From contig AP031352.1 in assembly GCA_037833965.1 (NCBI GenBank), positions 18,766,501 to 18,830,500 on the forward strand: a stretch of DNA of 64,000 nt. Direction: 5' to 3'. Position numbers and translations under genes: made by a program. Source of the DNA: Marchantia polymorpha subsp. ruderalis. Lineage: Eukaryota > Streptophyta > Marchantiopsida > Marchantiales > Marchantiaceae. A model generated the notes under the pieces. That model ran no database searches, was not told the DNA's origin, and saw nothing but the letters and a program-made list of their open reading frames with translations. The first letter of the stretch is position 1, and every line of letters begins with the position of its first letter. This document shows, piece by piece, positions 11,146 through 39,500 of this stretch.

Positions 11146-11177
11146 CCCTCAAAGGTCCTAACTAACACTACGCTATC

Positions 11178-19978: not shown

Positions 19979-20014
19979 CGTAGTGCAGTGTAGTGTTAGG
20001 TAGGACTTAGAAGG

Positions 20015-20023
20015 TATAAAATA
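20015..20023 (+). promoter_or_regulatory. LTR TATA box of the complete element
   Basis: TATAAAATA, about 37 bp after the U3 ORF stop codon. It is followed by the short stem GGCGTTTTGCC at 20040-20050. Transcription would start roughly 25-35 bp downstream, giving an R/U5 leader of about 0.9 kb. The same box is at 31202-31210, 35924-35932 and, in reverse, 37128-37136. Confidence 0.65.
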
Positions 20024-20389: not shown

Positions 20390-20915
20390 GGTTACGCTGC
20401 AGCAGGTGCCTTGAGGGTAACCCCTGTAGTATTTCTGGGAATGACAAGTGCCTGAGAATTCAAACTCTTCAATAGACTGTTGTTGTGTTACTGGAACGTT
20501 TCACAGTGAGTCCTTCAGTGCGGACCTGTGTTCTCTGCGCGTTTTGTGAGTTGAGAGTGTTGTTCACCGCGTAGGAGTGACTTCGATCCGAAGTAGGCAG
20601 TCCAAACCGGGTTTCCTACACTAGCAGCGAGCTAGTGGAAGTGTTGTAAAAGCCGGAGTTGGAAGTCACTGCCCGCAGCTTTGCCGAGTGTACTCTTGAG
20701 AGACTTTCCCCCTGAAATCTTGAAGTAGAGGTCCTAACGGATCTCTGGGTTGTGTTTCTGTAGTTTCAGGTGTGTGTGTGTGTGTGTGTTACGCTGCACT
20801 GTGCGACCTCCGAGTGCGCTCCGAGTGGACACTTGCAGTATTTCTGGGAGTGACAGTTGCCTGAGAATTCAAACTCCTCAATAGTCTGTTAAAACGTGAC
20901 ACTTTGTACCCTGTG
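20390..20915 (+). repeat. Internal duplication in the R/U5 region
   Basis: Two diverged copies of a block of about 100 bp, starting GTTACGCTGCA and continuing through GTATTTCTGGGA, TGCCTGAGAATTCAAACTC and CAATAG, lie at about 20393-20490 and 20788-20900. A TG microsatellite (about 20770-20788) precedes the second. The same duplication is seen in the other family-1 LTRs. Confidence 0.6.
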
Positions 20916-21009
20916 TGTTCCTCTGTCCCTGTGGGTTCGACCTTTCTACCACTATATTGCAGTTTTAGCCTTTAGTGGGTTATTACATAAGAACCCGACG
21001 ACTTCTTTT

Positions 21010-21026
21010 TGGCGCCGCTGCCGGGG
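21010..21026 (+). promoter_or_regulatory. Primer-binding site for tRNA-Asp
   Basis: TGGCGCCGCTGCCGGGG matches the complement of the 3' end of plant tRNA-Asp (TGGCGCCGTTGCCGGGG) at 16 of 17 positions. This primer is typical of Athila-type plant elements. It starts 22 bp after the LTR end, farther than the usual few bases. Confidence 0.88.
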
Positions 21027-21073
21027 ACAGTTGCGTCAACACCGGGGTTTTTACGAGCAGCCATGCTCGGTGA

Positions 21074-23905
21074 ATGTCGACTGGGGCTGGCGGGAGCAAC
21101 CTAAGTGCTAGAGCTGTCCGCAAGTTCCGACGAGATTCAGAGAAGGCCGTGGAAGAGACACGGCGTCAAACCAAGAAAACACCAAAAAGAGTACCTAAGC
21201 CTAGTTCGGCCGACATCCTTGGGGAACCTACCCCCGGCGACTCGGAACCAAACTTGGTGCTTACAGTTCTACTAGATATTCCTTGCACGGACCCGCCTAG
21301 TGAAGTAGAACCGACCGCCCGAGGACCGTCGACAGACACACTGATGGCGGACGGACAAGCCAATGTGCGGCTACCTCAGCCGATTACTAAACATTCCTAC
21401 CCGAAGTACAAAGGGAGTGGGGATGACGACGATGCAGATTCATACATCAAGTTATTCGAGTCGGTGTCTATTGCCAATCGCGAGATCGCAGACGACGACC
21501 GACTAAGGATCTTTCCAAGCCTTCTGCGGAAGAAAGCGAGGAGTTGGTATAATCACGAGAGCATCGATCCGACTGGGTTGACAACATGGGCCCAGCTGAA
21601 GGAGAAGTTCCTTCGTCGCTTTCGCGAGCTCGGCTACGACAGCCGGGTTTTGACGAAGTTACGTAATTTGCAGCGAGAGAAGAAGGAGAGTCTGCGTGAC
21701 TACACTGAGAGATTTATGGACCTCCTCGACAGAATACCGAAAACAGGACCAGGGTCCCCTTTCTCGGTACAACAAGCTGTGGATTGGTACGTGACCGGTT
21801 TAACTCGGGAGATGGAGACTTTTTGCCGACGTAGCAAGTGCGACACTATTGAGGATGTGATTGCATCGGCAGAAGCCTTCGAAACTTCCACTCTCAACCG
21901 CAGAGGGAGAGAGAGACGGGAGTCGAAGGAGCGCAAACCGAAGGGAGGGCGAAGACGGCGTAGAGGTACAACTCCGTCATCGGAGGAATCGTCTTCGGAC
22001 GAGAACCGTTCTTCATCCGAAGAAGAGGAAACCTCATCGTCGGAGGAGGAGAAGAAGAGGAAGAAGCATGGGTCAGCGAAGAAAAAGGGCATCCGACGAG
22101 TGACTACGGACAGAGCGCCGGGAGATATAGCTTCGAAGATGGAGACCCTTGTGAAGGACTTCGCCGATCTCAAGGTTCAAGTGGTAGGCGGGCATGATCG
22201 CCGAAAATCACCCGGGAGAGTGCGAGCGAACTTATGGTGTACTACGTGCGGGGCGGTGGGACATGCAAACACCGAGTGCCTTACCACCCGGCCGTCATAT
22301 CCAGTCAACGCAGTAGAGTGGGCGCAACCGTACTATGGAGAGCACCCTCAGTACTATGGAGAGGCTAGCGAAGAGACAGCCTACGCCGTCCAGTCGGTGC
22401 CTACCCCTCCTGCGGTTTCAGCAATGCAAGTTCCACGATATATTCCGGTGGATCGGGCCACTACGGTACCTGTGAGGCGGAGAGCACCTCCAGGGACGTT
22501 TGACCCACCGCCACCGCGAGCTTGTTATAATTGCGGGGAAGTTGGGCACTTCTCACCGCAGTGTCCCCATCCAAAAAGGCGAAACGATTATGCTCCGACA
22601 TGTAGCAATTGCAAGAAGGTCGGGCACACTGCGCCAGAGTGTGATCAGCCACCAGTCCCTCGGCCAGTGGTACGATTTGTGAACACTCCTGCCAAGGAGG
22701 ACGTGCAAGTTAACCAGGTCGAAGTAGGTTCAGACGGGGATGGCGAAGACGAAGAATGGCCGGCTGAAGAGGTTATGTGCGCACGGGTCGAAACTCGTAG
22801 CTCCAAGAAATCCAAGGAGCAAGAGCGTGACACTCGCAAGCACGAACGGAGAACCGCCGACCGGACGGGAAAAGGAAAGGAGAAGACATCCAGCAAGTCC
22901 GACTCGCGACCTGCTCGGAAGTCTTTGACTACGCGGGAGGCACCAGCAGTGCGCCCCCAGGCAGCAGTCGAGGACGAGCCAGTGCGCCTACTGAAACGGG
23001 ACTATGCTCCGGATATCCGCAACGAGGTAGCCAACCTGTTGCAGGAAGCGATCCGCACTCAAAAGGATCCACCGCGGCCAGACCTGACATCCTCCCTTGG
23101 GGCGAAGTTGGCAGCCACCGTGGAACCTCGCAGAGCGTCGCCGACCCCGGCGCCCCAACGCGCCCACTATGACTTGGTTGAAGATCTCGGGAGTCGAAAA
23201 GTGAACATTACGTTCAAGCAGCTCTTGGAGGACAATAAGACGTATCGGAGAATGTTGATGCTTTCGCTACGGCATCCGCGGAAGCCGCGCGCATCCACAT
23301 CCTCTCAAGTATATCAAGTGGAGAGCGAAGACCAAGGGCCACCCGAGATCGATGTGGAGATAGCCGGATGTTGTGTACGCAGAGTGCCAATCGACTCTGG
23401 ATCAGGAGTCAACATAATGACGGAGGATACAGCGAGAGCCTTGGGGTTCAGTCAATACGAACCCTCGAAGCGTGTGTTGAGATTAGCGGATCAGACGCGG
23501 AGAATGCCTGCAGGTATGCTGCGCAATGTCAAGACAACCATCGGGGGTGCGGACTTTCGGTTGACGTATATCATCCTTCAACCGATGATGAAGCAGGGCT
23601 ATGACGTTCTGCTCGGGCGACCATGGCTATATGGTGCACAAGTCAGATGTGACTGGCGAAGACATCGCCTTAAGTTTCCTCACCCTTCGGAACCGACCAA
23701 AACCATTACAGTGCCCTGGAATAGGGTCAGGCACGAAGGAGAGACCCCATCGACAAGTGCAGGTTACACATCGGGCGAGGACAGTGAGTCGACCGCGCGA
23801 TCGGATTCCAGTGGTACCGAATCCGATTACTTCGTGGGATTCGTTGCCTGCTGTTCGGTGGAAGAAGAAGAAGAGACGGAAGCTATTCAGCCGGAAGACG
23901 AATAG
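21074..23905 (+). CDS. gag-pro: Gag-protease polyprotein
   Basis: 943 codons encoding the structural and protease part of the element. A retrotransposon Gag domain lies around residues 108-240 (SYIKLFESV, ARSWYN, LREKF-like LKEKFLRRF, LRDYTERF). An Arg/Ser/Glu-rich stretch follows at 275-340. Three CCHC zinc knuckles, which bind the genomic RNA, are at C389-C402, C484-C497 and C510-C523. The aspartic protease has its active site at D774 in PIDSGSGVNIM (DSGS where DTGA or DSGA is more usual) and a C-terminal DVLLGRPWL strand at 844-852. The product should assemble particles in the cytoplasm and cleave itself. The chosen ATG is the first after the PBS. It ends in UAG, in frame with pol. Confidence 0.95.
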   Translation: MSTGAGGSNLSARAVRKFRRDSEKAVEETRRQTKKTPKRVPKPSSADILGEPTPGDSEPNLVLTVLLDIPCTDPPSEVEPTARGPSTDTLMADGQANVRLPQPITKHSYPKYKGSGDDDDADSYIKLFESVSIANREIADDDRLRIFPSLLRKKARSWYNHESIDPTGLTTWAQLKEKFLRRFRELGYDSRVLTKLRNLQREKKESLRDYTERFMDLLDRIPKTGPGSPFSVQQAVDWYVTGLTREMETFCRRSKCDTIEDVIASAEAFETSTLNRRGRERRESKERKPKGGRRRRRGTTPSSEESSSDENRSSSEEEETSSSEEEKKRKKHGSAKKKGIRRVTTDRAPGDIASKMETLVKDFADLKVQVVGGHDRRKSPGRVRANLWCTTCGAVGHANTECLTTRPSYPVNAVEWAQPYYGEHPQYYGEASEETAYAVQSVPTPPAVSAMQVPRYIPVDRATTVPVRRRAPPGTFDPPPPRACYNCGEVGHFSPQCPHPKRRNDYAPTCSNCKKVGHTAPECDQPPVPRPVVRFVNTPAKEDVQVNQVEVGSDGDGEDEEWPAEEVMCARVETRSSKKSKEQERDTRKHERRTADRTGKGKEKTSSKSDSRPARKSLTTREAPAVRPQAAVEDEPVRLLKRDYAPDIRNEVANLLQEAIRTQKDPPRPDLTSSLGAKLAATVEPRRASPTPAPQRAHYDLVEDLGSRKVNITFKQLLEDNKTYRRMLMLSLRHPRKPRASTSSQVYQVESEDQGPPEIDVEIAGCCVRRVPIDSGSGVNIMTEDTARALGFSQYEPSKRVLRLADQTRRMPAGMLRNVKTTIGGADFRLTYIILQPMMKQGYDVLLGRPWLYGAQVRCDWRRHRLKFPHPSEPTKTITVPWNRVRHEGETPSTSAGYTSGEDSESTARSDSSGTESDYFVGFVACCSVEEEEETEAIQPEDE

Positions 23906-23914: not shown

Positions 23915-26746
23915 GTGGGACTGGGAAGGAGTGAGACGAGTCACACCGAGGGCATTGTCGACCCTAGTGACTGTCACGAAGTACAACTCAGTCCCGGCAA
24001 GTGCTTGAAGGTATCAAGCGCAGTGAGAGGAGACGAGCTAAGGAAAGTACAGGCGTTCCTTAGCCACTATGTCGACGTCTTCGCCTGGAAGATCGAGGAC
24101 ATGAAGGGGATACCTGCACGGTATGGGGAGCACCGTATCGATTTACTGGACGACTCAGTACCCATACGACAGCGCCAGTATCGCCTCAACCCAAAGTACT
24201 CCTTGCTAGTGAAAGAGGAGATAGATAAGTACTTGAGCGCTGGTATTATTTATCCTGTGCTCAGCAGTGAGTGGGTGTCGCCGATTGTTATCGTACCCAA
24301 GAAGTTGACGGGTAAGATACGAGTGTGTCAGGATTTCCGGAAGTTGAATGCGGCAACACGCAAGGATCATCACCCGTTACCATTCACGGATGCCATTCTA
24401 GACCATGTCGCAGGACATGAATGTTATAGCTTCCTGGATGGGTTCTCAGGTTACAATCAGGTGTCTATCCGTGAACAGGACAAGGATAAAACTACGTTCA
24501 CAACCGACTGGGGAACTTACGCATACCACAAGATGCCCTTCGGTCTGTGCAACGCGCCTGCCACCTTTCAACGGATGATGACCAATATCTTTCAGGAACA
24601 ACTGAGGAAGTTCCTAGAAATATTCATAGATGACTTCTGTGTCTTTGGGAAGCGGTCTGAACACCTAAGTCACTTGAAGCAGACTTTCGATAAATGTAGA
24701 GAGAGCAGTTTATCGCTGCATCCCGAGAAGTGCTTTTTCTTCATGACTAGTGGGATCTTGTTGGGTCATCGGGTCTCGGCAGAAGGCATTGCGGTGGACA
24801 TCGAGAAGGTCAAGGTTATACTCGAGCTTGAGCCACCCGCGAATCTAAGAGAGCTGCGAGCATTCCTGGGTCATGTGGGCTACTATCGAAGATTCATACA
24901 CATGTATGCAATACTGGCGGCGGACCTGACCAAGTTGTTGAAGAAGGACGAGCCTTATGCTTGGGGTGCGAACCAGCAGACAGCATTTGAAGCTCTGAAA
25001 GCGAAACTCACGACTGCTCCCGTACTAAGGAGTCCAGACTGGAATCGACCATTCCATGTTTACGTTGACACTTCGGCATTCGCCATCGGTGTAGTACTGA
25101 GTCAAAAGGATGACAACAAAAAGGACTACCCGATCTACTTCGCGAGCCGACAACTGTCTCTAGCAGAGCGGAAGTACACCACGACGGAGAGAGAAGCGTT
25201 GGGGATGGTGTACTCCTGTAAAAAGTTCCGTCACTACCTAATCTGTTACGAGTTTGTGTTCCATGTGGACCACTACGCATTGCAACACCTAGTTAAGAAA
25301 GCCGACCTATCCGGTCGAATCGCCAGGTGGGTGTTATTACTACAAGAGTTCACCTACACAGTCCAGACCAGGAAAGGGGTGCACCACGAAAATGCGGATT
25401 ACTTGTCCCGATTATGGACACAGCCGACAGAGGAGGAATTGGTGGACGATTTTCCAGATGAAGAGTTATTTCAGTTGTCTGCAGGACATGAGTCCCGCTA
25501 TGCCGACCTGTATCGATATCTGCTAACCCTCCAGTGCCCCGAGGGCATGGATTTGGAACAGCGAACTGTCTTCATTCATAAGGCAGGCCCGTATCAACTC
25601 CAGCAGGGAGTTTTGTTCAAGAAGATGGCGGATGAGCGCTTATGCAGATGCCTGGAGGAATCAGAAGTACCAAGAATAGTGAGTGCGATGCACACAGAGG
25701 AGGCGGGTGGACACTATGCCACCAGGAACACGGTCACAAAGATCCTAAATGCGGGGTATTGGTGGCCGACCATGTTTAAGGATGTTCTCGATTACATCCG
25801 CAAGTGCGACAGTTGCCAGAGGACGGGGAGACCGACGCCTACAACACGATGGCCCCTGACTCCCATCATGCCTCTAGCACCTTTCGAAAAGTGGGGTATT
25901 GACTTTGTAGGGCCGATACAACCAGTGACTAGAAGTACACGAAGGCGCTACATTCTGGTAGCAACGGACTACGCCACCAAAATGGTAGAGGCCAGAGCCA
26001 CCAGAAGGGATGATGCTGCCACAGTGGCAGCATTCTTGTTTGAGTCGATCATCACACGCTACGGATGTCCCTTAGAGCTAGTGAGCGACCGGGGCACGCA
26101 TTTTCTGAATCAGATCATCGAAGATCTGACACGGTACTTCCACATCAAGCACCGGAAGACTACTCCATACAATCCTAAGGCAAATGGACTGACGGAGAAG
26201 TCCAATGGACTGCTGTGTAAAATACTACTCAAGGTCACGGTGAATCACGCTCACGACTGGGATACGAAGCTAGCAGCCGCTCTATGGGCGTACCGCACAG
26301 CTGAGAAGATCACGACCAAACAGACACCATACTTTCTGGTGTATGGGCAACACCCGATCCTCCCAATCGAATTTGAAGTACCCACACATCGAACGATGGA
26401 TTTGCAGAGGATGGGCGCAGAGGAGAGTCAGCTCTACAGGTTACAGGAGGTCATGCTGCTGGATGAGCGGAGAAGAGACGCCGAAGATCGCACCAGGAAA
26501 ATCCAGCTCCGCCGAAAGGAGAGGTACGATAAAAAGATCAAACCGGTACTACTGCAGGCGGGTGATTTGGCATTGCTCTACGACAGCAGGCATGCCAGAT
26601 TCCCAGGCAAACTGCACCTAAGGTGGATGGGACCTTACAGGGTTGTCGAAGTCTTCCCGAATGGGTCCATCCAACTTGCGGACCTGGCCGGCGATTTGTT
26701 AGGCACCCGAGTGAACGGGTGGCGGTTGAAGAAATACCACATGTGA
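23915..26746 (+). CDS. pol: Pol: reverse transcriptase, RNase H, integrase
   Basis: The frame is open from the codon after the Gag-Pro UAG (23906) to 26746. The first listed codon is GTG, so expression as a readthrough fusion is more likely than independent initiation. Counting from 23915: RT spans about 85-290, with catalytic D175 (FLDGFSGY) and D239-D240 in FIDDF (YVDD/YIDD in most relatives). RNase H spans about 375-500, with D385, E427, D452 and D495. The integrase HHCC zinc finger is H593, H600, C631, C634. The catalytic triad is D663 (GIDFVGP), D725 (SDRGTHF) and E761 (LTEKSN), with D725 and E761 separated by 35 residues. No chromodomain follows; the protein ends WRLKKYHM. All catalytic residues are present, so the enzyme looks competent. 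Confidence 0.95.
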   Translation: MGLGRSETSHTEGIVDPSDCHEVQLSPGKCLKVSSAVRGDELRKVQAFLSHYVDVFAWKIEDMKGIPARYGEHRIDLLDDSVPIRQRQYRLNPKYSLLVKEEIDKYLSAGIIYPVLSSEWVSPIVIVPKKLTGKIRVCQDFRKLNAATRKDHHPLPFTDAILDHVAGHECYSFLDGFSGYNQVSIREQDKDKTTFTTDWGTYAYHKMPFGLCNAPATFQRMMTNIFQEQLRKFLEIFIDDFCVFGKRSEHLSHLKQTFDKCRESSLSLHPEKCFFFMTSGILLGHRVSAEGIAVDIEKVKVILELEPPANLRELRAFLGHVGYYRRFIHMYAILAADLTKLLKKDEPYAWGANQQTAFEALKAKLTTAPVLRSPDWNRPFHVYVDTSAFAIGVVLSQKDDNKKDYPIYFASRQLSLAERKYTTTEREALGMVYSCKKFRHYLICYEFVFHVDHYALQHLVKKADLSGRIARWVLLLQEFTYTVQTRKGVHHENADYLSRLWTQPTEEELVDDFPDEELFQLSAGHESRYADLYRYLLTLQCPEGMDLEQRTVFIHKAGPYQLQQGVLFKKMADERLCRCLEESEVPRIVSAMHTEEAGGHYATRNTVTKILNAGYWWPTMFKDVLDYIRKCDSCQRTGRPTPTTRWPLTPIMPLAPFEKWGIDFVGPIQPVTRSTRRRYILVATDYATKMVEARATRRDDAATVAAFLFESIITRYGCPLELVSDRGTHFLNQIIEDLTRYFHIKHRKTTPYNPKANGLTEKSNGLLCKILLKVTVNHAHDWDTKLAAALWAYRTAEKITTKQTPYFLVYGQHPILPIEFEVPTHRTMDLQRMGAEESQLYRLQEVMLLDERRRDAEDRTRKIQLRRKERYDKKIKPVLLQAGDLALLYDSRHARFPGKLHLRWMGPYRVVEVFPNGSIQLADLAGDLLGTRVNGWRLKKYHM

Positions 26747-26770: not shown

Positions 26771-26781
26771 GAGGAGGGGGG
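26771..26781 (+). promoter_or_regulatory. Polypurine tract
   Basis: GAGGAGGGGGG directly before CA and the 3' LTR start TGTGG at 26784. This is the expected plus-strand primer, and it fixes the left boundary of the 3' LTR upstream of the U3 ORF. Confidence 0.88.
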
Positions 26782-28027
26782 CATGTGGTACCCCACTTTT
26801 GGCAATTTTGAGGAAATTAAAACATTTTTGGAAAACTGTACCCCGGCAGCATTGTAAATAGCCTTCGGTACATCAAAACAGAGTGAATCCAGAAGATCGC
26901 GGGGATTCTCGAGGGATCTTGTAGAATCTGGGATTTGGGGTGCAGTAGTAAGGTCAGGCACCACCCTCCCTGCGAGCTCCGCAGTTAGGATCTCTACGGC
27001 GCAAGGCGCAAAACCCGCCTTCGGAGGTTGCGTCCGCGGCTGTAGGGAAACCCTCGTAATTAGGTAACCCTCGGGCGCCTTGACCAAGTTAGGATCCCGT
27101 TGGAAAGAGCTCGACGCGCTGATTCCAACGAGCCCAAGAACGCTTGGAACGGACGAGGACTTAGGGAGTTATCGCTACTGGAAGAAACGGAGGCGGTCGC
27201 CCCCGGCGGAAGGATTTCGCCACCGGCGCGAATTCCGCCTACGCGGAAGGGGGATTCAAGTTTTGTCCTATGCGCGGACGAAGGCGTTCGCCTGTGCACA
27301 GGCGAAGTAGGGTTAGGGAAGGCGCGAAGTCCGCCTACGCACAGGCGTTCGCCTGTGCACAGGCACTTCGGCGTTGGCGGGAGATCCGCCTTGGGCCCTA
27401 GAAATGCGCCTTGTGAGGTAGAAAGTGTACGACGCCTTCCGCGCCAGCGCAGCGCAGCGTACGTCGGAAGACCGCCAGAGTAATCCAATCGGTACGGACC
27501 ATGCGGACGGCACGGGTGGATGCGCTCTTGGACGGACGGAGTTGCGGCGGCGGAAGCGCCGACGGAGAGACAAGGAACGGACAGACTGGACGGAGACGGC
27601 TGACCACGGTCAACGCCTTCCGCGCCAGCGCAGCGCCGCGGACGGAATTCGCCTGCGCACAGGAGAACGCCTGTGCACAGGAGAATGTTCAAGTTCCGCG
27701 CCGGCGGAGAATCCGCCGAGGCCCCTGCCTGCGCACAGGCAGGAGTTGAATTTTTGTCCGACATGCGGACGCACGCGTCAAGGCAGAAGGAGATTGGCCG
27801 AGGGGCGGTACGAACAAGTGTACCGCGCAAGGCGGAAAACTCGCCTTCGGCGCTACGCCCCCATGTCCGGAGGGTGACACGCTCGCGGAGTTCAAATCCG
27901 CCAATTCGAGCGTGAGAGTTTAATCGACGACGGCGGAGCGTGAAGCCGCGCGTGAGAGCGAAGACCGTTCCAGCGTACAGCCGGCGCGGCCATCAAGTGA
28001 GACGTTCTTCACGACCAAGAGACGACC

Positions 28028-31000
28028 ATGACCTTCGACCGGGCGGCGGAGAGCGTCCCATTCTTGAATTCGCGATTCCAATCTCTTGTGCGCGCTGCGC
28101 GCATCCATCTGCTGGCTGCGGACCATTCTCGTCGTCGTCGCACAGGAGATTTCTTGTTGATTGAGGGAGAAGTGAGTGCGCGTGATTTGGAATTGAGAGC
28201 GATTAGAGTTTGCCGAGAGAGAAAGAAACGCGGACAGTGCGGAAGTAGAATGAGCGGGCGAGCGAACCCCAGGAACGCAATGACGAGACCGAGCAGATTG
28301 CGGATGGTGCCACTTCGCCTGCCGCAGAACGGGCTGCGCGCTTTCGAAGAGCGCTTAATAGCAAGAAAGCTCGATTTCTTGCTATGGGGATGGAATTACA
28401 TCTGCGCGAATATGGTGCGCGAGTGGTTAGAGCCACAGGGACCACCCTCGCGCGGATTGCGTCCGCATGTTGACCGGTGGACAGTCCAAGATTGGGCGCA
28501 GGCGTTGGGAAGATGTGCTGGCATGCCAGGGCATCTCCTTTTCGACAGCGAGAGCATCAAGGTGACCAAGCAAGAAGAAGCGCAATTTGTGGAGCTGTTC
28601 AAGACCGGGAGGTCTACCAAGAATGGGTACAGGACCCGTGATTACAAAGATCGATTTCGCCGGACTTTGTCCGCGGCGCTGATGCAATTACTGCAGCCGC
28701 ACCGCGCCTGCTACATCACATTGTGGCAGGTCTCTTTTGTGGAGTGCGTCATCGAGGGAACTCCAATTCACTGGGCGAGCATCCTGCACAGAGTGATGCG
28801 ACAGCACGCGTTTGAGGAGAAGGGGGGAACGCTAAACCATCTTTCTCCTTTCCTCATCAATTTTTATCGACAGCGGAATTGTTTGACAGCGGCGGAGCTT
28901 GAACATTTTCCGCCATTGTCCATCGACCATCCCGGGAAGTATGTGCGGGAGAACGAGGTTGACACTGATGCGGAGGAGTCACCGACTTCTACCCCATCAA
29001 GACGGAGGGATGAAGGGAGACACACCCCTGCGGCGCGAGTGCCGCGGAAGCGGCGATGGAGGGAAGAGGCCGAAGAGGAGCAGCATCAAGAACTCTCTGT
29101 TCCCATTCGACCGCGGCCGCTGTGCGAGCCATACAGCCGGCCGAAGCAGAAGGCACGCAGACTGGTGTTGCCAGCTGACAGTGCAGACACGGCGACGATT
29201 GCGACGGAGATAGGAAGTGCGTCGCCAGAGAGACGAGAGGAAGCGCGGACGACCGCAGGAGCGACGGGCCACGCTGCAACCTCGTCGGGAGAGAGGCCGC
29301 CTACGGGCCAAGGGCCTCCGGAGTTACCAAGTGCGATGCGGACAGATGTTCCGTTTGCGCACAGGCGAACCTCCGCGGACGGACAAGCCTCCGCGGATCG
29401 GCGAACACAAGTGGACGTGGATCTACGCTTACGCGTGGGAAGGAGCAGTCCGCCTGTGCACAGGCGCTCGCCTGTGCACAGGTCACCTATGCACAGAACA
29501 CCTCCACACGTGCCGCCTGTGCACAGGCAAGAATCACCCCCGTTCCAACGTAGGAAGGGGAAGGAGCCGGCGGAAGAACCGCCTACGAGACACCGGCCCT
29601 CGGGGCCAGACCCACCGGCGCACCACGCGCCGCAATTCGCGCCTTCGGCGCCAGGGCCTTCGAGCCGAGGAGATACGAGCAGAGAGCGTGCGGAGGCCGC
29701 ACCATCGGCGGGAAGTACGCCGATAGATGCGCCTTCGGCGGTAGGGCCTATAGGCCAAGGAGCATCGGGCGTGCGGCCCCCGGCCATGTCGCCTTCGGCG
29801 ATAGATGTCCGCGGCGCTACGCCTGCGGCGGACAAGGCGCCGGCACATGCGCCTGCGCACGGGCCGGGCACAGCCCCCACGGACCGATCAAGGGAGCAGC
29901 AGACGGAGGAGCGGAGTGACTGTCCGCGGGACGACATCTCGATGCGCGATGCGCAATCCAACCCCGCGCAGCCACCCTCCGCTCGATCGCCTTCGGCGAC
30001 GGACGACGGCGACAGAGAGAATGCGGTGGGCAATCAACCAGCGAGCGACAGGGATGCCGCTCGGATACATTCGCCTTCCGCCTTAGACATTTTGGCGACG
30101 AGCAGCGAGGCTGCAGCCGTGCCTTCGCAGGCAGCACACGTCGAGGACGTGCAGCCCCACTCGGGGCAGTCGCCGACGCAATCAATGGCGACTGAAATTC
30201 TCCACTCGGATGATGAGGACGGAGGCTCCACGGAAGAAATGTCAGGAGCAGAAGACACCGAGGAGGAGGAGGAGGAAATTGTTGGAGCGCCGGCGGCGGC
30301 GCTCTCTGAGCAGGTGATTCCGTTGCTGCGGTACTTGGATCGCAAGGTCGATAAATACGCCGACCCACTCCAGCCGGGATCTTACATCGAGTTAGTGCGC
30401 AGGCGGACTCGCACTAAAGTCCACACCAGCAAGCTATTAGCTAGAGTGGACCAGGAGTTGAGGGACTTGAAGGAGAAGCATGAGTGCTTGTGGGGACAGT
30501 ACAAGCTTAATCAGAAATTCTACAAGCACTCCGAGAAGATGAAGGATGAGAAACTGGGCGAGCTCACCAAGGAGCAGGTGAAGGTCAAGGAAGCACTCAA
30601 CTCTGAGCAGGCCGAGAATCGGATTTTGTCAGAGGAGCACGTGCGACAAACGCGGTTGTTGGAACAATGTCAGCTCGCACGGCAGGCGGATGAAGAATTA
30701 ATCCGCAGTTTACAGTCAGAGTGTGGCGAATTGAGGGCGCAACGTGCTGAAGCCGAATCGCAATTAGTGACCATTGAAGAGGATCGCAGGAAGGAGGCGG
30801 ATCGCACGAAGGTGGAGACGGCGAGGCGAGTCGCCCACTGTCTCAAGGGCTACGCCCACTGGGAAGTGAAGGCGCAGGAGAAACTCACACTGCGTGAGTT
30901 TGAATTGCGCGCAGCCGGGTTGTTGTCAGGCGACAGTAGGAGTCGGCGGAAGGTAGCGAAGAAGCTCGAGGCCTTTCTGTCGAAGGCACAGGACACCATG

Positions 31001-31165
31001 TCCGCCCTCGAGGGGGAGGTGTCCGCGGCGTTGCAGCGGTTGGGACTGCGTAGTCGAGCGGAAGAGTGGCAGGGTAGGGAGCTAGTGCGCGGCAGTCGGC
31101 CGCGCAGGAGACGTAGTACAGGTTCCGCGGAGTGTAGTGTAGCGTGGTTCCGTGCAGGCGTGTAG
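28028..31165 (+). CDS. U3-encoded retrotransposon protein (unknown function), intact
   Basis: 1045 codons lying wholly inside the U3 of the 3' LTR, upstream of the TATA box, so on genomic RNA it is the third ORF after pol. Residues about 90-310 form a conserved domain with LDFLLWGWNYIC (115-126), RTRDYKDRFRRTL (202-214), a helix-rich stretch 225-270 and GGTLNHLSPFLINFYRQRNCLT (266-287). Its spacing (a Gly-x-x-Ile helix, then Leu-Ile followed by an aromatic residue) faintly recalls the putative plant transposon protein domain of angiosperm retroelements; this is only a suggestion. Residues about 312-740 are low-complexity, Pro/Ser/Arg/Ala-rich, partly coded by GCCTGTGCACAGGC palindromes (HRRSPVHRS). 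Then come SALDILA, SMATEIL, an acidic run, LSEQVIPLLRYLDRK and a long coiled coil to about 1000, ending in Arg-rich and WFRAGV segments. No signal peptide or membrane span is seen, which argues against an envelope protein. Not recognised as any named family. Confidence 0.85.
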   Translation: MTFDRAAESVPFLNSRFQSLVRAARIHLLAADHSRRRRTGDFLLIEGEVSARDLELRAIRVCRERKKRGQCGSRMSGRANPRNAMTRPSRLRMVPLRLPQNGLRAFEERLIARKLDFLLWGWNYICANMVREWLEPQGPPSRGLRPHVDRWTVQDWAQALGRCAGMPGHLLFDSESIKVTKQEEAQFVELFKTGRSTKNGYRTRDYKDRFRRTLSAALMQLLQPHRACYITLWQVSFVECVIEGTPIHWASILHRVMRQHAFEEKGGTLNHLSPFLINFYRQRNCLTAAELEHFPPLSIDHPGKYVRENEVDTDAEESPTSTPSRRRDEGRHTPAARVPRKRRWREEAEEEQHQELSVPIRPRPLCEPYSRPKQKARRLVLPADSADTATIATEIGSASPERREEARTTAGATGHAATSSGERPPTGQGPPELPSAMRTDVPFAHRRTSADGQASADRRTQVDVDLRLRVGRSSPPVHRRSPVHRSPMHRTPPHVPPVHRQESPPFQRRKGKEPAEEPPTRHRPSGPDPPAHHAPQFAPSAPGPSSRGDTSRERAEAAPSAGSTPIDAPSAVGPIGQGASGVRPPAMSPSAIDVRGATPAADKAPAHAPAHGPGTAPTDRSREQQTEERSDCPRDDISMRDAQSNPAQPPSARSPSATDDGDRENAVGNQPASDRDAARIHSPSALDILATSSEAAAVPSQAAHVEDVQPHSGQSPTQSMATEILHSDDEDGGSTEEMSGAEDTEEEEEEIVGAPAAALSEQVIPLLRYLDRKVDKYADPLQPGSYIELVRRRTRTKVHTSKLLARVDQELRDLKEKHECLWGQYKLNQKFYKHSEKMKDEKLGELTKEQVKVKEALNSEQAENRILSEEHVRQTRLLEQCQLARQADEELIRSLQSECGELRAQRAEAESQLVTIEEDRRKEADRTKVETARRVAHCLKGYAHWEVKAQEKLTLREFELRAAGLLSGDSRSRRKVAKKLEAFLSKAQDTMSALEGEVSAALQRLGLRSRAEEWQGRELVRGSRPRRRRSTGSAECSVAWFRAGV

Positions 31166-31201
31166 CGTAGTGCAGTGTAGTGTTAGGTAGGACTTAGAAG
31201 G

Positions 31202-31210
31202 TATAAAATA
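31202..31210 (+). promoter_or_regulatory. TATA box of the 3' LTR
   Basis: TATAAAATA, 36 bp downstream of the U3 ORF stop. In the 3' LTR it points out of the element into the right half of LTR#1. Confidence 0.6.
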
Positions 31211-32174
31211 GTTCCAGGCGTTTTGCCTGGGGTTCTTTCCCATCAGAAGTGCAGATCAGGAACCCATTTCCTTTGCGTGTTTGTGTCCTTGAGTTCTGTC
31301 ACCACGCACGAGGAGTTACAACTTAGCGTTCCGCATTTTGTAGCTGAAGGCCTTCGGCCGAATGTTCAGAGCTAGTACATTGGTTAGAGACTTGAGTAGT
31401 TCGGATCTGCACCTGCGGGTGACTGCCGATGCTCAGAGCCAGTGACTAGTTAGATACTTGAACAGTTTCGCCCCTACACCTTCGAGTGTTTCTTTCTGAT
31501 TGTACTCCTTGGGATTTTTCCCCTGAATGCCAAAGTGAAGTTTTGCTACTTCGTGTAAGCCTTGGTTGTAAATTCAGGTTACGCTGCAGCAGGTGCCTTG
31601 AGGGTAACCCCTGTAGTATTTCTGGGAATGACAAGTGCCTGAGAATTCAAACTCTTCAATAGACTGTTGTTGTGTTAGTGGAACGTTTCACAGTGAGTCC
31701 TTCAGTGCGGACCTGTGTTCTCTGCGCGTTTTGTGAGTTGAGAGTGTTGTTCACCGCGTAGGAGTGACTTCGATCCGAAGTAGGCAGTCCAAACCGGGTT
31801 TCCTACACTAGCAGCGAGCTAGTGGAAGTGTTGTAAAAGCCGGAGTTGGAAGTCACTGCCCGCAGCTTTGCCGAGTGTACTCTTGAGAGACTTTCCCCCT
31901 GAAATCTTGAAGTAGAGGTCCTAACGGATCTCTGGGTTGTGTTTCTGTAGTTTCAGGTGTGTGTGTGTGTGTGTGTTACGCTGCACTGTGCGACCTCCGA
32001 GTGCGCTCCGAGTGGACACTTGCAGTATTTCTGGGAGTGACAGTTGCCTGAGAATTCAAACTCCTCAATAGTCTGTTAAAACGTGACACTTTGTACCCTG
32101 TGTGTTCCTCTGTCCCTGTGGGTTCGACCTTTCTACCACTATATTGCAGTTTTAGCCTTTAGTGGGTTATTACA

Positions 32175-35100
32175 CGCAGCGTACGTCGGAAGACCGCCAG
32201 AGTAATCCAATCGGTACGGACCATGCGGACGGCACGGGTGGATGCGCTCTTGGACGGACGGAGTTGCGGCGGCGGAAGCGCCGACGGAGAGACAAGGAAC
32301 GGACAGACTGGACGGAGACGGCTGACCACGGTCAACGCCTTCCGCGCCAGCGCAGCGCCGCGGACGGAATTCGCCTGCGCACAGGCGAACGCCTGTGCAC
32401 AGGAGGATGTTCAGGTTCCGCGCCGGCGGAGAATCCGCCGAGGCCCCTGCCTGCGCACAGGCAGGAGTTGAATTTTTGTCCGACATGCGGACGCACGCGT
32501 CAAGGCAGAAGGAGATTGGCCGAGGGGCGGTACGAACAAGTGTACCGCGCAAGGCGGAAAACTCGCCTTCGGCGCTACGCCCCCATGTCCGGAGGGTGAC
32601 ACGCTCGCGGAGTTCAAATCCGCCAATTCGAGCGTGAGAGTTTAATCGACGACGGCGGAGCGTGAAGCCGCGCGTGAGAGCGAAGACCGTTCCAGCGTAC
32701 AGCCGGCGCGGCCATCAAGTGAGACGTTCTTCACGACCAAGAGACGACCATGACCTTCGACCGGGCGGCGGAGAGCGTCCCATTCTTGAATTCGCGATTC
32801 CAATCTCTTGTGCGCGCTGCGCGCATCCATCTGCTGGCTGCGGACCATTCTCGTCGTCGTCGCACAGGAGATTTCTTGTTGATTGAGGGAGAAGTGAGTG
32901 CGCGTGATTTGGAATTGAGAGCGATTAGAGTTTGCCGAGAGAGAAAGAAACGCGGACAGTGCGGAAGTAGAATGAGCGGGCGAGCGAACCCCAGGAACGC
33001 AATGACGAGACCGAGCAGATTGCGGATGGTGCCACTTCGCCTGCCGCAGAACGGGCTGCGCGCTTTCGAAGAGCGCTTAATAGCAAGAAAGCTCGATTTC
33101 TTGCTATGGGGATGGAATTACATCTGCGCGAATATGGTGCGCGAGTGGCTAGAGCCACAGGGACCACCCTCGCGAGGATTGCGTCCGCATGTTGACCGGT
33201 GGACAGTCCAAGATTGGGCGCAGGCGTTGGGAAGATGTGCTGGCATGCCAGGGCATCTCCTTTTCGACAGCGAGAGCATCAAGGTGACCAAGCAAGAAGA
33301 AGCGCAATTTGTGGAGCTGTTCAAGACCGGGAGGTCTACCAAGAATGGGTACAGGACCCGTGATTACAAAGATCGATTTCGCCGGACTTTGTCCGCGGCG
33401 CTGATGCAATTACTGCAGCCGCACCGCGCCTGCTACATCACATTGTGGCAGGTCTCTTTTGTGGAGTGCGTCATCGAGGGAACTCCAATTCACTGGGCGA
33501 GCATCCTGCACAGAGTGATGCGACAGCACGCGTTTGAGGAGAAGGGGGGAACGCTAAACCATCTTTCTCCTTTCCTCATCAATTTTTATCGACAGCGGAA
33601 TTGTTTGACAGCGGCGGAGCTTGAACATTTTCCGCCATTGTCCATCGACCATCCCGGGAAGTATGTGCGGGAGAACGAGGTCGACACTGATGCGGAGGAG
33701 TCACCGACTTCTACCCCATCAAGACGGAGGGATGAAGGGAGACACACCCCTGCGGCGCGAGTGCCGCGGAAGCGGCGATGGAGGGAAGAGGCCGAAGAGG
33801 AGCAGCATCAAGAACTCTCTGCTCCCATTCGACCGCGGCCGCTGTGCGAGCCATACAGCCGGCCGAAGCAGAAGGCACGCAGACTGGTGTTGCCAGCTGA
33901 CAGTGCAGACACGGCGACGATTGCGACGGAGATAGGAAGTGCGTCGCCAGAGAGACGAGAGGAAGCGCGGACGACCGCAGGAGCGACGGGCCACGCTGCA
34001 ACCTCGTCGGGAGAGAGGCCGCCTACGGGCCAAGGGCCTCCGGAGTTACCACGTGCGATGCGGACAGATGTTCCGTTTGCGCACAGGCGAACCTCCGCGG
34101 ACGGACGAGCCTCCGCGGATCGGCGAACACAAGTGGACGTGGATCTACGCTTACGCGTGGGAAGGAGCAGTCCGCCTGTGCACAGGCGCTCGCCTGTGCA
34201 CAGGTCGCCTGTGCACAGAACACCTCCACACGTGCCGCCTGTGCACAGGCAAGAATCACCCCCGTTCCAACGTAGGAAGGGGAAGGAGCCGGCGGAAGAA
34301 CCGCCTACGAGACACCGGCCCTCGGGGCCAGACCCTCCGGCGCACCACGCGCCGCAATTCGCGCCTTCGGCGCCAGGGCCTTCGAGCCGAGGGGATACGA
34401 GCAGAGAGCGTGCGGAGGCCGCACCATCGGCGGGAAGTACGCCGATAGATGCGCCTTCGGCGGTAGGGCCTATAGGCCAAGGAGCATCGGGCGTGCGGCC
34501 CCCGGCCATGTCGCCTTCGGCGATAGATGTCCGCGGCGCTACGCCTGCGACGGACAAGGCGCCGGCACATGCGCCTGCGCACGGGCCGGGCACAGCCCCC
34601 ACGGACCGATCAAGGGAGCAGCAGACGGAGGAGCGGAGTGACTGTCCGCGGGATGAAATCTCGATGCGCGATGCGCAATCCAACCCCGCGCAGCCACCCT
34701 CCGCTCGATCGCCTTCGGCGACGGACGACGGCGACAGAGAGAATGCGGTGGGCAATCAACCAGCGAGCGACGGGGATGCCGCTCGGATACATTCGCCTTC
34801 CGCCTTAGACATTTTGGCGACGAGCAGCGAGGCTGCAGCCGTGCCTTCGCAGGCAGCACACGTCGAGGACGTGCAGCCCCACTCGGGGCAGTCGCCGACG
34901 CAATCAATGGCGACTGAAATTCTCCACTCGGATGATGAGGACGGAGGCTCCACGGAAGAAATGTCAGGAGCAGAAGACACCGAGGAGGAGGAGGAGGAAA
35001 TTGTTGGAGCGCCGGCGGCGGCGCTCTCCGAGCAGGTGATTCCGTTGCTGCGGTACTTGGATCGCAAGGTCGATAAATACGCCGACCCACTCCAGCCGGG

Positions 35101-36494
35101 ATCTTACATCGAGTTAGTGCGCAGGCGGACTCGCACTAAAGTCCACACCAGCAAGCTATTAGCTAGAGTGGACCAGGAGTTGAGGGACTTGAAGGAGAAG
35201 CATGAGTGCTTGTGGGGACAGTACAAGCTTAATCAGAAATTCTACAAGCACTCCGAGAAGATGAAGGATGAGAAACTGGGCGAGCTCACCAAGGAGCAGG
35301 TGAAGGTCAAGGAAGCACTCAACTCTGAGCAGGCCGAGAATCGGATTTTGTCAGAGGAGCTCGTGCGACAGACGCGGTTGTTGGAACAATGTCAGCTCGC
35401 ACGGCAGGCGGATGAAGAATTAATCCGCAGTTTACAGTCAGAGTGTGGCGAATTGAGGGCGCAACGTGCTGAAGCCGAATCGCAATTAGTGACCATTGAA
35501 GAGGATCGCAGGAAGGAGGCGGATCGCACGAAGGTGGAGACGGCGAGGCGAGTCGCCCACTGTCTCAAGGGCTACGCCCACTGGGAAGTGAAGGCGCAGG
35601 AGAAACTCACACTGCGTGAGTTTGAATTGCGCGCAGCCGGGTTGTTGTCAGGCGACAGTAGGAGTCGGCGGAAGGTAGCGAGGAAGCTCGAGGCCTTTCT
35701 GTCGAAGGCACAGGATACCATGTCCGCCCTCGAGGGGGAGGTGTCCGCGGCGTTGCAACGGTTGGGACTGCGTAGTCGAGCGGAAGAGTGGCAGGGTAGG
35801 GAGCTAGTGCGCGGCAGTCGGCCGCGCAGGAGACGTAGTACAGGTTCCGCGGAGTGTAGTGTAGCGTGGTTCCGTGCAGGCGTGTAGCGTAGTGTAGTGT
35901 AGTGTTAGGTAGGACTTAGAAGGTATAAAATAGTTCCAGGCGTTTTGCCTGGGGTTCTTTCCCATCAGAAGTGCAGATCAGGAACCCATTTCCTTTGCGT
36001 GTTTGTGTCCTTGAGTTCTGTCACCACGCACGAGGAGTTACAACTTAGCGTTCCGCATTTTGTAGCTGAAGGCCTTCGGCCGAATGTTCAGAGCTAGTAC
36101 ATTGGTTAGAGACTTGAGTAGTTCGGATCTGCACCTGCGGGTGACTGCCGATGCTCAGAGCCAGTGACTAGTTAGATACTTGAACAGTTTCGCCCCTACA
36201 CCTTTGAGTGTTTCTTCCTGATTGTACTCCTTGGGATTTTTCCCCTGAATGCCAAAGTGAAGTTTTGCTACTTCGTGTAAGCCTTGGTTGTAAATTCAGG
36301 TTACGCTGCAGCAGGTGCCTTGAGGGTAACCCCTGTAGTATTTCTGGGAATGACAAGTGCCTGAGAATTCAAACTCGTCAATAGACTGTTGTTGTGTTAC
36401 TGGAATGTTTCACAGTGAGTCCTTTAGTGCGGACCTGTGTTCTCTGCGCGTTTTGTGAGTTGAGAGTGTTGTTCACCGCGTAGGAGTGACTTCG
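32175..36494 (+). mobile_element. LTR#1 (family 1), 3' segment
   Basis: Resumes LTR#1 after the second CGCAG (32175-32179) and runs collinearly with the 3' LTR to 36494, where the palindrome-centre junction begins. Its last 402 bp are missing except for a detached TTACA at 41556-41560, which abuts the CTTGA duplication. With 17187-17860 it adds up to the expected 5391 bp. No internal genes belong to it, so it was a solo LTR before the later insertions. Confidence 0.9.
32750..35887 (+). CDS. U3-encoded retrotransposon protein, intact second copy
   Basis: 1045 codons, differing from the copy at 28028-31165 at only about ten residues (for example LSAPIR versus LSVPIR, ELPRAM versus ELPSAM, RKVARKLE versus RKVAKKLE). 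All conserved blocks are present: the WGWNYIC domain, the palindrome-coded VHRSPVHR linker, the acidic run and the coiled coil. It sits in a solo LTR with no linked gag or pol. Expression would need a promoter outside the LTR or in the upstream part of U3, because the LTR TATA box (35924-35932) lies downstream. Confidence 0.8.
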   Translation: MTFDRAAESVPFLNSRFQSLVRAARIHLLAADHSRRRRTGDFLLIEGEVSARDLELRAIRVCRERKKRGQCGSRMSGRANPRNAMTRPSRLRMVPLRLPQNGLRAFEERLIARKLDFLLWGWNYICANMVREWLEPQGPPSRGLRPHVDRWTVQDWAQALGRCAGMPGHLLFDSESIKVTKQEEAQFVELFKTGRSTKNGYRTRDYKDRFRRTLSAALMQLLQPHRACYITLWQVSFVECVIEGTPIHWASILHRVMRQHAFEEKGGTLNHLSPFLINFYRQRNCLTAAELEHFPPLSIDHPGKYVRENEVDTDAEESPTSTPSRRRDEGRHTPAARVPRKRRWREEAEEEQHQELSAPIRPRPLCEPYSRPKQKARRLVLPADSADTATIATEIGSASPERREEARTTAGATGHAATSSGERPPTGQGPPELPRAMRTDVPFAHRRTSADGRASADRRTQVDVDLRLRVGRSSPPVHRRSPVHRSPVHRTPPHVPPVHRQESPPFQRRKGKEPAEEPPTRHRPSGPDPPAHHAPQFAPSAPGPSSRGDTSRERAEAAPSAGSTPIDAPSAVGPIGQGASGVRPPAMSPSAIDVRGATPATDKAPAHAPAHGPGTAPTDRSREQQTEERSDCPRDEISMRDAQSNPAQPPSARSPSATDDGDRENAVGNQPASDGDAARIHSPSALDILATSSEAAAVPSQAAHVEDVQPHSGQSPTQSMATEILHSDDEDGGSTEEMSGAEDTEEEEEEIVGAPAAALSEQVIPLLRYLDRKVDKYADPLQPGSYIELVRRRTRTKVHTSKLLARVDQELRDLKEKHECLWGQYKLNQKFYKHSEKMKDEKLGELTKEQVKVKEALNSEQAENRILSEELVRQTRLLEQCQLARQADEELIRSLQSECGELRAQRAEAESQLVTIEEDRRKEADRTKVETARRVAHCLKGYAHWEVKAQEKLTLREFELRAAGLLSGDSRSRRKVARKLEAFLSKAQDTMSALEGEVSAALQRLGLRSRAEEWQGRELVRGSRPRRRRSTGSAECSVAWFRAGV

Positions 36495-36532: not shown

Positions 36533-39500
36533 TAGGAAACCCGGTTTGGACTGCCTACTTCGGATCGAAGTCACTCATACGCGGTGAACAACACTCTCAA
36601 CTCACAAAACGCGCAGAGAACACAGGTCCGCACTGAAGGACTCACTTTGAAACATTCCAGTAACACAACAACAGTCTATTGAAGAGTTTGAATTCTCAGG
36701 CACTTGTCATTCCCAGAAATACTACAGGGGTTACCCTCAAGGCACCTGCTGCAGCGTAACCTGAATTTACAACCAAGGCTTACACGAAGTAGCAAAACTT
36801 CACTTTGGCATTTAGGGGAAAAATCCCAAGGAGTACAATCAGAAAGAAACACTCGAAGGTGTAGGGGCGAAACTGTTCAAGTATCTAACTAGTCACTGGC
36901 TCTGAGCATCGGCAGTCACCCGCAGGTGCAGATCCGAACTACTCAAGTCTCTAACCAATGTACTAGCTCTGAACATTCGGCCGAAGGCCTTCAGCTACAA
37001 AATGCGGAACGCTAAGTTGTAACTCCTCGTGCGTGGTGACAGAACTCAAGGACACAAACACGCAAAGGAAATGGGTTCCTGATCTGCACTTCTGATGGGA
37101 AAGAACCCCAGGCAAAACGCCTGGAACTATTTTATACCTTCTAAGTCCTACCTAACACTACACTACACTACGCTACACGCCTGCACGGAACCACGCTACA
37201 CTACACTCCGCGGAACCTGTACTACGTCTCCTGCGCGGCCGACTGCCGCGCACTAGCTCCCTACCCTGCCACTCTTCCGCTCGACTACGCAGTCCCAACC
37301 GTTGCAACGCCGCGGACACCTCCCCCTCGAGGGCGGACATGGTATCCTGTGCCTTCGACAGAAAGGCCTCGAGCTTCCTCGCTACCTTCCGCCGACTCCT
37401 ACTGTCGCCTGACAACAACCCGGCTGCGCGCAATTCAAACTCACGCAGTGTGAGTTTCTCCTGCGCCTTCACTTCCCAGTGGGCGTAGCCCTTGAGACAG
37501 TGGGCGACTCGCCTCGCCGTCTCCACCTTCGTGCGATCCGCCTCCTTCCTGCGATCCTCTTCAATGGTCACTAATTGCGATTCGGCTTCAGCACGTTGCG
37601 CCCTCAATTCGCCACACTCTGACTGTAAACTGCGGATTAATTCTTCATCCGCCTGCCGTGCGAGCTGACATTGTTCCAACAACCGCGTCTGTCGCACGAG
37701 CTCCTCTGACAAAATCCGATTCTCGGCCTGCTCAGAGTTGAGTGCTTCCTTGACCTTCACCTGCTCCTTGGTGAGCTCGCCCAGTTTCTCATCCTTCATC
37801 TTCTCGGAGTGCTTGTAGAATTTCTGATTAAGCTTGTACTGTCCCCACAAGCACTCATGCTTCTCCTTCAAGTCCCTCAACTCCTGGTCCACTCTAGCTA
37901 ATAGCTTGCTGGTGTGGACTTTAGTGCGAGTCCGCCTGCGCACTAACTCGATGTAAGATCCCGGCTGGAGTGGGTCGGCGTATTTATCGACCTTGCGATC
38001 CAAGTACCGCAGCAACGGAATCACCTGCTCGGAGAGCGCCGCCGCCGGCGCTCCAACAATTTCCTCCTCCTCCTCCTCGGTGTCTTCTGCTCCTGACATT
38101 TCTTCCGTGGAGCCTCCGTCCTCATCATCCGAGTGGAGAATTTCAGTCGCCATTGATTGCGTCGGCGACTGCCCCGAGTGGGGCTGCACGTCCTCGACGT
38201 GTGCTGCCTGCGAAGGCACGGCTGCAGCCTCGCTGCTCGTCGCCAAAATGTCTAAGGCGGAAGGCGAATGTATCCGAGCGGCATCCCCGTCGCTCGCTGG
38301 TTGATTGCCCACCGCATTCTCTCTGTCGCCGTCGTCCGTCGCCGAAGGCGATCGAGCGGAGGGTGGCTGCGCGGGGTTGGATTGCGCATCGCGCATCGAG
38401 ATTTCATCCCGCGGACAGTCACTCCGCTCCTCCGTCTGCTGCTCCCTTGATCGGTCCGTGGGGGCTGTGCCCGGCCCGTGCGCAGGCGCATGTGCCGGCG
38501 CCTTGTCCGTCGCAGGCGTAGCGCCGCGGACATCTATCGCCGAAGGCGACATGGCCGGGGGCCGCACGCCCGATGCTCCTTGGCCTATAGGCCCTACCGC
38601 CGAAGGCGCATCTATCGGCGTACTTCCCGCCGATGGTGCGGCCTCCGCACGCTCTCTGCTCGTATCCCCTCGGCTCGAAGGCCCTGGCGCCGAAGGCGCG
38701 AATTGCGGCGCGTGGTGCGCCGGAGGGTCTGGCCCCGAGGGCCGGTGTCTCGTAGGCGGTTCTTCCGCCGGCTCCTTCCCCTTCCTACGTTGGAACGGGG
38801 GTGATTCTTGCCTGTGCACAGGCGGCACGTGTGGAGGTGTTCTGTGCACAGGCGACCTGTGCACAGGCGAGCGCCTGTGCACAGGCGGACTGCTCCTTCC
38901 CACGCGTAAGCGTAGATCCACGTCCACTTGTGTTCGCCGATCCGCGGAGGCTCGTCCGTCCGCGGAGGTTCGCCTGTGCGCAAACGGAACATCTGTCCGC
39001 ATCGCACGTGGTAACTCCGGAGGCCCTTGGCCCGTAGGCGGCCTCTCTCCCGACGAGGTTGCAGCGTGGCCCGTCGCTCCTGCGGTCGTCCGCGCTTCCT
39101 CTCGTCTCTCTGGCGACGCACTTCCTATCTCCGTCGCAATCGTCGCCGTGTCTGCACTGTCAGCTGGCAACACCAGTCTGCGTGCCTTCTGCTTCGGCCG
39201 GCTGTATGGCTCGCACAGCGGCCGCGGTCGAATGGGAGCAGAGAGTTCTTGATGCTGCTCCTCTTCGGCCTCTTCCCTCCATCGCCGCTTCCGCGGCACT
39301 CGCGCCGCAGGGGTGTGTCTCCCTTCATCCCTCCGTCTTGATGGGGTAGAAGTCGGTGACTCCTCCGCATCAGTGTCGACCTCGTTCTCCCGCACATACT
39401 TCCCGGGATGGTCGATGGACAATGGCGGAAAATGTTCAAGCTCCGCCGCTGTCAAACAATTCCGCTGTCGATAAAAATTGATGAGGAAAGGAGAAAGATG

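Follow-up and report, generated by a model that had tools for sequence, protein, structure and literature searches.

Can a plant long terminal repeat (LTR) carry a gene of its own? The question was raised by a Ty3/gypsy retrotransposon in a 64-kb window, the whole stretch of Marchantia polymorpha subsp. ruderalis DNA analyzed here (positions 18766501-18830500 of contig C3, GenBank AP031352.1). The LTR of this element contains an open reading frame (ORF) of about 1,000 codons. Common practice regards LTRs as regulatory DNA without coding content and solo LTRs as relics, and repeat-masking can hide LTRs from gene annotation. Among retroviruses, Sag of mouse mammary tumour virus (MMTV) and lentiviral Nef are proteins encoded wholly or partly in U3. 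Our favoured reading, to which we give a probability of about 0.75, is that the ORF is a selected sense accessory gene in U3, expressed from the 3' LTR copy, and that it encodes a protein which is probably nuclear and self-associating.

The element is a Ty3/gypsy LTR retrotransposon with an LTR pair, a primer-binding site, a polypurine tract, a 5-bp target-site duplication (TSD), gag-protease and pol, all on the forward strand. The 3' LTR (26784..32174, 5,391 bp) has the ends TGTGG...TTACA and is followed by the TSD CGCAG (32175-32179). The 5' LTR (17861..20987) is preceded by the same CGCAG (17856-17860). An earlier note on this DNA had fixed the 3' LTR boundary by the polypurine tract and the TSD, and this boundary was confirmed. 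The 5' LTR has suffered a 2,263-bp internal deletion, which takes out most of its copy of the ORF. At the 3,127 positions shared by the two LTRs, eight differences were found. The insertion target was an older LTR of the same family (family 1), entered at CGCAG.

The primer-binding site TGGCGCCGCTGCCGGGGA (21010..21027), which we take to be of the tRNA-Asp type, lies 22 bp past the 5' LTR end. The gag-protease ORF (21074..23905) contains Retrotrans_gag, CCHC knuckles and an aspartyl protease, the last with a weak Pfam match (23.8 bits against a cut-off of 24.3), and ends in TAG followed by CAATTA. The pol frame (23915..26746) is shared with gag-protease and has the order reverse transcriptase, RNase H, integrase. 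In the Pfam scan of the element, the RT_RNaseH models alone were matched for RNase H, the Tat branch being marked by an additional RNase H domain, and no chromodomain, the mark of the chromovirus branch, was matched at the integrase end at E<=1. The polypurine tract GAGGAGGGGGG (26771..26781), which also precedes the 3' LTR in other genomic copies, is separated from the pol stop by only 24 bases. This gap is too short to hold an ordinary third gene.

The ORF lies on the strand of gag-pol, downstream of pol, and is kept across many copies. It is open from its first ATG over 1045 codons (28028-31165), or over about 961 codons (28280..31165) from the conserved start M85. The LTR TATA box TATAAAAT (31202..31209), conserved in family 3 and changed in family 2, lies 36 bp 3' of the ORF stop. 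The ORF is wholly within U3, between the polypurine tract and the TATA box, as the earlier note had described it.

In the LTR, the longest run without a stop is 1,054 codons, and none of 300 dinucleotide shuffles gave one above 435. A chance ORF was rejected. Constraint on the frame was estimated by comparison with a solo LTR of a second family (family 2) in the window. The ratio of non-synonymous to synonymous substitution rates (dN/dS) was 0.31 overall, and not near 1, the value that the earlier note, if transcript evidence was lacking as well, had named as refuting its reading. By region, the ratio was 0.48 for codons 1-76, 0.12 for codons 77-310 in the N-terminal domain, 0.49 for the linker (311-760) and 0.21 for codons 761-1045 (1,030 of the 1,045 codons were used; 13 were dropped for gaps and two stop codons were skipped). 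Substitutions at the first, second and third codon positions numbered 11, 9 and 32 in the N domain, and 16, 15 and 38 in the C domain. The same count in the non-coding 5' flank gave 39, 57 and 46, without the third-position pattern.

Polymorphism was compared among 22 family 1 copies, chosen for their similarity at the protein level, in columns represented by at least 10 of them. For the N domain, the ratio of non-synonymous to synonymous polymorphism (pN/pS) was 0.06 among singleton changes and 0.08 among shared ones; the C domain gave 0.26 for both classes, and the linker 0.71 and 0.25, respectively. Codons 1-84 gave no sign of constraint. The changes there were few (one synonymous, seven non-synonymous), the singleton pN/pS was 1.28, and the three shared changes were all non-synonymous.

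Seven copies of a third family (family 3), of which the six fetched ones were picked without internal stops and are biased by this choice, gave pN/pS values of 0.48 (N domain), 0.38 (linker) and 0.26 (C domain), after removal of stop codons and of columns covered by fewer than five copies. The comparison between families 1 and 3 was almost saturated, with ratios of 0.34 for the N domain and 0.29 for the linker, and none could be computed for the C domain. Compared with each other, the two family 3 copies of the window, one of them with one stop, gave 0.67, as expected from decaying copies. Judged from the comparison of families 1 and 2 and from the 22 family 1 copies, purifying selection was shown to act mainly on the N-terminal domain (about 85-310) and the C-terminal coiled coil (about 744-1045). 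The linker between them is of low complexity and less constrained.

The start context AACGCAATG at codon 85 is common to families 1 and 2 and to one of two family 3 copies, and the other family 3 copy reads AACACAATG. Upstream of this codon, insertions set family 3 apart from families 1 and 2. Seven homologous proteins start exactly at M85. The shared context and these seven starts gave a predicted protein of about 961 residues (28280-31165). The earlier claim of a 1045-codon gene was correct for the open frame, and too long for the protein expected from M85. The homologue P0043 has an alignable longer N terminus, and an upstream ATG may be used in some copies. No conserved splice acceptor stood out before M85 in the alignment of families 1-3, inspected by eye.

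The ORF protein was then placed in the whole genome (241,466,482 bases in nine contigs) by six-frame search. Candidates were ranked by protein similarity, and the scored matches numbered 44 of 13,414 first-look candidates for family 1, 58 of 13,609 for family 3 and 63 of 12,882 for P0001, a homologous protein of M. polymorpha subsp. ruderalis. The 44 family 1 matches were full length and about 99-100% identical, and 43 had no internal stop; because of the ranking, such fractions of intact copies, here and below, are not genome-wide estimates. Both LTR ends were found around the ORF in 40 of the 44, and one end in the other four. The earlier note had proposed that an ordinary host gene would show matches mostly outside LTRs, and no such pattern was seen.

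When 20 family 1 matches were taken whole, all had both LTR ends and an open ORF (in one, L024, an inner part of the LTR outside the ORF is deleted). For 21 further matches, short pieces were taken where the ends were expected, and these contained the LTR start in 19 and the LTR end in 21. The window itself supplied the remaining three, of which one has both ends and two have the start and a truncated end. The gene had been said to be duplicated at integration, in agreement with ten two-LTR elements with matching TSDs, in which the ORF is open in both LTRs (six from the whole copies, four from the end windows); in the window element, the 5' copy is broken. It had also been said to survive in solo LTRs, and two such LTRs with an intact ORF were found elsewhere in the genome (L016 and L021, TSDs GGGAC and GCGCA). 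The LTRs of six elements differ by only 1, 2, 2, 2, 3 and 12 substitutions over 4,983-5,394 aligned bases. This indicated that family 1 was active recently.

In the family 3 search, 24 of the 58 scored matches had no internal stops. Five copies were checked for their ends, and the LTR start was at the expected place in four and the LTR end in four (one of these LTR ends was identified by eye and has one mismatch). Two of the five are solo LTRs with TSDs GCTAT and TTGGG; the other three have a PBS-like stretch (like a primer-binding site) downstream, run into an inverted LTR and lack the start, respectively. The P0001 query gave 144 matching pieces from the 63 scored candidates, and the long pieces were about 60-85% identical, P0001's own locus excepted. 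Five diverged loci, chosen by hand from this list, had the LTR start in all five and the LTR end in four. Three of them have TSDs (TGGGG, CGTTT and GAACT), and one is a 3' LTR with a polypurine tract, whose internal region is 81% identical to that of the window element. P0001's own locus meets an inverted family 1-like LTR (92% identical) before its LTR end.

Since family 3 and the five diverged loci show the same placement, the location of the ORF in the LTR is not peculiar to one copy, and it is probably old within this group. We read the ORF as an accessory gene of a recently active Ty3/gypsy lineage in Marchantia, contained entirely in the U3 of giant LTRs.

When 5.8 billion proteins were searched by profile and 7,992 candidates scored, 48 homologues of the ORF protein were obtained, 39 from M. 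polymorpha and nine without an organism name. Identity to the query was 40-63% for 36 of them, and none of the 48 came from another named organism. On the other hand, the pol relatives, among the best 120 of 4,721, included the liverwort Riccia sorocarpa (42-77%) and other land plants. No relative was found in the prokaryote genome collection. In the M. polymorpha gene model AXG93_2202s1020 (P0022), the residues VVPHFW just ahead of the ORF part are LTR bases 2-19 translated. This suggested that the model is an annotated copy in an LTR.

The C-terminal third of the protein was modelled as a long coiled coil (mean predicted local distance difference test, pLDDT, 78). Residues 326-343, one of the basic clusters, resemble a bipartite nuclear signal. 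Of seven distinct aligned proteins, six share basic stretches around PRKR and RPKQKAR, with some changes, and P0004 lacks them. Identity reaches 90% or more at 50 of 254 N-domain positions, counted over columns with 20 or more sequences. There was no membrane segment, the highest 19-residue Kyte-Doolittle mean being 1.14, and an env-like gene was ruled out by this absence.

No convincing Pfam domain was found in any member of the protein family. Neither PF04195 (TRP28) nor PF10536 (the plant mobile domain of Ogre) was listed at E<=10 for any of 38 members, in listings that are incomplete because the HMMER filters drop most matches above E about 0.1. PF04195 also had no match in the element's own genome, in a search made without a positive control. 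An antisense TRP28-type gene was rejected; the ORF is sense, lies inside the LTR and has no PF04195 match. A supposed likeness of the N-terminal domain to plant transposon-protein domains was dropped, as no Pfam search supported it. Foldseek with the N-terminal domain model found no match in PDB or BFVD at E<=0.001, and a profile search of PDB sequences gave chance-level matches only (best E 6).

We interpreted the ORF as an accessory ORF downstream of pol that would have joined U3, plus-strand priming occurring upstream of it. With the polypurine tract in this position, every round of reverse transcription copies the ORF into both LTRs. The genomic RNA would hold the 3' LTR copy only, behind pol. 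As the 5' LTR copy precedes the promoter, the protein would be made from this 3' copy as the last cistron, with a spliced or subgenomic mRNA as the probable template. It may enter the nucleus by its basic clusters near 326-343, self-associate through the coiled coil, and help a step in the element's RNA, cDNA or chromatin, as has been suggested for accessory proteins of other plant elements. This nuclear role was proposed from the basic clusters, the coiled coil and the analogy with other plant accessory ORFs, and we hold the helper function only tentatively. That the element encodes a selected protein in U3 is highly probable.

Several results weigh against this interpretation. The N-terminal domain has no convincing Pfam match and a poor AlphaFold model (mean pLDDT 50, from 38 sequences), which makes any function guesswork. 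Picking the 22 family 1 copies by protein similarity biased their pN/pS low in absolute value; this choice does not account for the differences seen from region to region. In family 3, constraint on the N domain is no stronger than on the rest. Internal stops were present in 34 of the 58 scored family 3 matches, and in most of the long matches of the P0001 group.

The alternative that survived best concerns the source of the protein. It may be made mainly from a promoter of its own in the first 1.2-1.5 kb of the LTR, and the LTR would then be a self-contained gene even when solo. There are 1.24 kb between the LTR start and the open frame, parts of the first ~460 bp of the LTR are still recognisable at diverged loci, and solo LTRs with an open ORF exist. 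But the upstream part of U3 contained no TATAWA word in family 1 or in family 3, and we consider this source possible and rather unlikely. Selection has only two possible targets, the 3' copy present in the RNA and any copies whose transcription starts from a promoter within the LTR's first 1.24 kb. A stronger form, in which the LTR is a stand-alone gene and a nuclear coiled-coil protein, still produced from solo LTRs across the genome, acts in trans on the family or has been co-opted by the host, is doubtful. If it were true, collapse to a solo LTR would leave a working gene and not a dead relic.

The protein might also be a self-limiting or competitive brake on transposition and not a helper. 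The gene can be kept in solo LTRs, and its dosage could therefore rise with copy number. The constraint seen in young copies fits a helper and a brake alike, and we regard a brake as improbable.

It is very improbable that the ORF is untranslated, a by-product of a GC-rich, repeat-built U3 that is open because the copies are young. The youth of the six LTR pairs (1-12 substitutions), the weak constraint and short palindromic repeats of the linker, and the occurrence of long antisense frames would agree with such an origin. But the third-position excess and the dN/dS of 0.12 and 0.21 in two domains between families, the 36 homologues at 40-63% identity among the 48, the codon-85 context shared across families 1, 2 and one family 3 copy, and a length half of which was reached by no shuffle largely refuted it. 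A host gene captured or repeatedly hit by the element, with the LTR location secondary, is barely credible: gene models exist for many copies in an M. polymorpha annotation, but the checked copies lie between LTR ends (or at one end where the other is missing or interrupted), none of the 48 homologues, nine of them without an organism name, came from another named organism, and the close match of P0001 at C2:26895422 (98% over residues 81-710, no internal stop) also has an LTR start upstream.

Like MMTV Sag and Nef, the favoured selected U3 gene is read in the sense direction, follows the polypurine tract in the 3' U3 and is copied into both LTRs. It differs in being much longer (about 961 aa) and in belonging to a plant Ty3/gypsy element, and the likeness drawn here is one of placement. 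The Marchantia protein also differs in its nuclear-signal-like and coiled-coil features and in having no membrane segment.

In the accessible text of reports on plant LTR retrotransposons, extra ORFs are placed in the internal part, either between pol and the 3' LTR or at other sites (PMC7264820, PMC6317226, PMC11963269). Those named aORF or eORF-3'F are also accessory ORFs downstream of pol in many copies, with a nuclear role suggested for some (PMC7264820, PMC6317226); as far as that text goes, they lie between pol and the 3' LTR, whereas the Marchantia ORF is wholly in U3 and in both LTRs. The TRP28 (PF04195) ORFs of Retand, Grande and RIRE2 likewise encode a large accessory protein of plant Ty3/gypsy elements, suggested to be nuclear in the parts seen (PMC11963269, PMC7264820). 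Unlike the Marchantia ORF, they are antisense and outside the LTR, and none of the 38 Marchantia family members matches PF04195. An orchid Ty3/gypsy element with an AlkB demethylase ORF, described in the accessible part of PMC12786077, is a further plant case with an accessory protein; there, the enzyme domain is a recognised one. The earlier note had supposed that a plant Ty3/gypsy protein in U3 may be undescribed. In agreement, no precedent for a plant gene in an LTR or U3 was found in the accessible open-access literature (subscription papers and preprints were not covered). Papers matching the subject of ORFs in LTRs or in U3 dealt mostly with animal retroviruses or with other matters. The available portions of a plant review (PMC12786077) held no case of an LTR-encoded gene, and those of papers on extra ORFs and Marchantia LTR retrotransposons held no such report (PMC9985172, PMC10714607).

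If the favoured reading is true, a selected gene approaching 1,000 codons sits in the U3 of several related families, which would show that genes can reside in plant LTRs. Gene dosage would be doubled at each insertion, and a coding gene would be left after the element collapses. It would also offer a testable system, in a model liverwort, for what accessory proteins of plant retrotransposons do.

Other LTR copies surround the element in the window. The older family 1 target LTR is split into its first 674 bp (17187..17860, forward) and a continuation that stops ~400 bp short of the end (32180..36494, forward) and has an intact ORF at 32750-35887. Tail to tail with it lies an inverted copy (36533..41555, reverse), which ends ~370 bp early and has an intact ORF at 37173-40310. 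The proteins of these two ORFs are identical. The earlier count of three intact copies in the window was right; the two outside the element, taken for solo LTRs, are truncated LTRs in this inverted pair. In 32175-41555, the pair differs at 15 of 4,320 sites, with none in the 3.0 kb at 33176-36204. This suggested a conversion tract. Inverted-LTR junctions were also seen at the family 3 LTR L030 and at P0001's LTR L091, and such tail-to-tail junctions may recur in the genome.

The family 2 solo LTR (4124..9466, reverse) is about 90% identical and has the TSD TAACA on both sides; its ORF is broken by two in-frame stops and gaps. The family 3 solo LTR (10219..15091, reverse, TSD CACTT) contains an open frame homologous to the U3 ORF at 11178-13520. 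A second family 3 LTR (43613..48481, reverse) holds broken ORF pieces at 44570-47117.

Between the ORF stop and the LTR end (31166-32174; promoter, R and U5), families 1 and 2 differ by 3.2%, and this region is more conserved than the ORF or the 5' part of U3 (11.9%). Its last part, as sampled at four diverged loci, is about 88-91% identical. The palindrome GCCTGTGCACAGGC and its variants were seen by eye in several copies in U3 at 27200-27760 and 29300-29560, and some of them sit in the ORF linker and encode PVHRRSPVHR-like repeats.

At the gag-protease/pol junction (23903-23911), the frame is one, with TAG and then CAA TTA between. TAG CAA TTA is a strong readthrough context in tobacco mosaic virus. 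The same word was present in seven of nine other elements sampled, the remaining two windows holding other sequence. By its sequence context, the TAG looks like programmed readthrough and not a mutation.

Three LTRs (L027, G000:C3:29919185 and G000:C8:1610309) have a polypurine tract upstream and a primer-binding site downstream, which suggested chains of LTR-internal-LTR-internal-LTR. On G000:C1, around 2.35, 2.76 and 3.11 Mb, a set of family 3 and P0001-like matches occurs three times with nearly constant internal spacing, and this suggested a large tandem triplication. In the window, an open frame on the reverse strand (53991-55532) has a partial match to a UDP-glycosyltransferase domain, and is apparently a host gene or gene remnant adjoining the LTR cluster.

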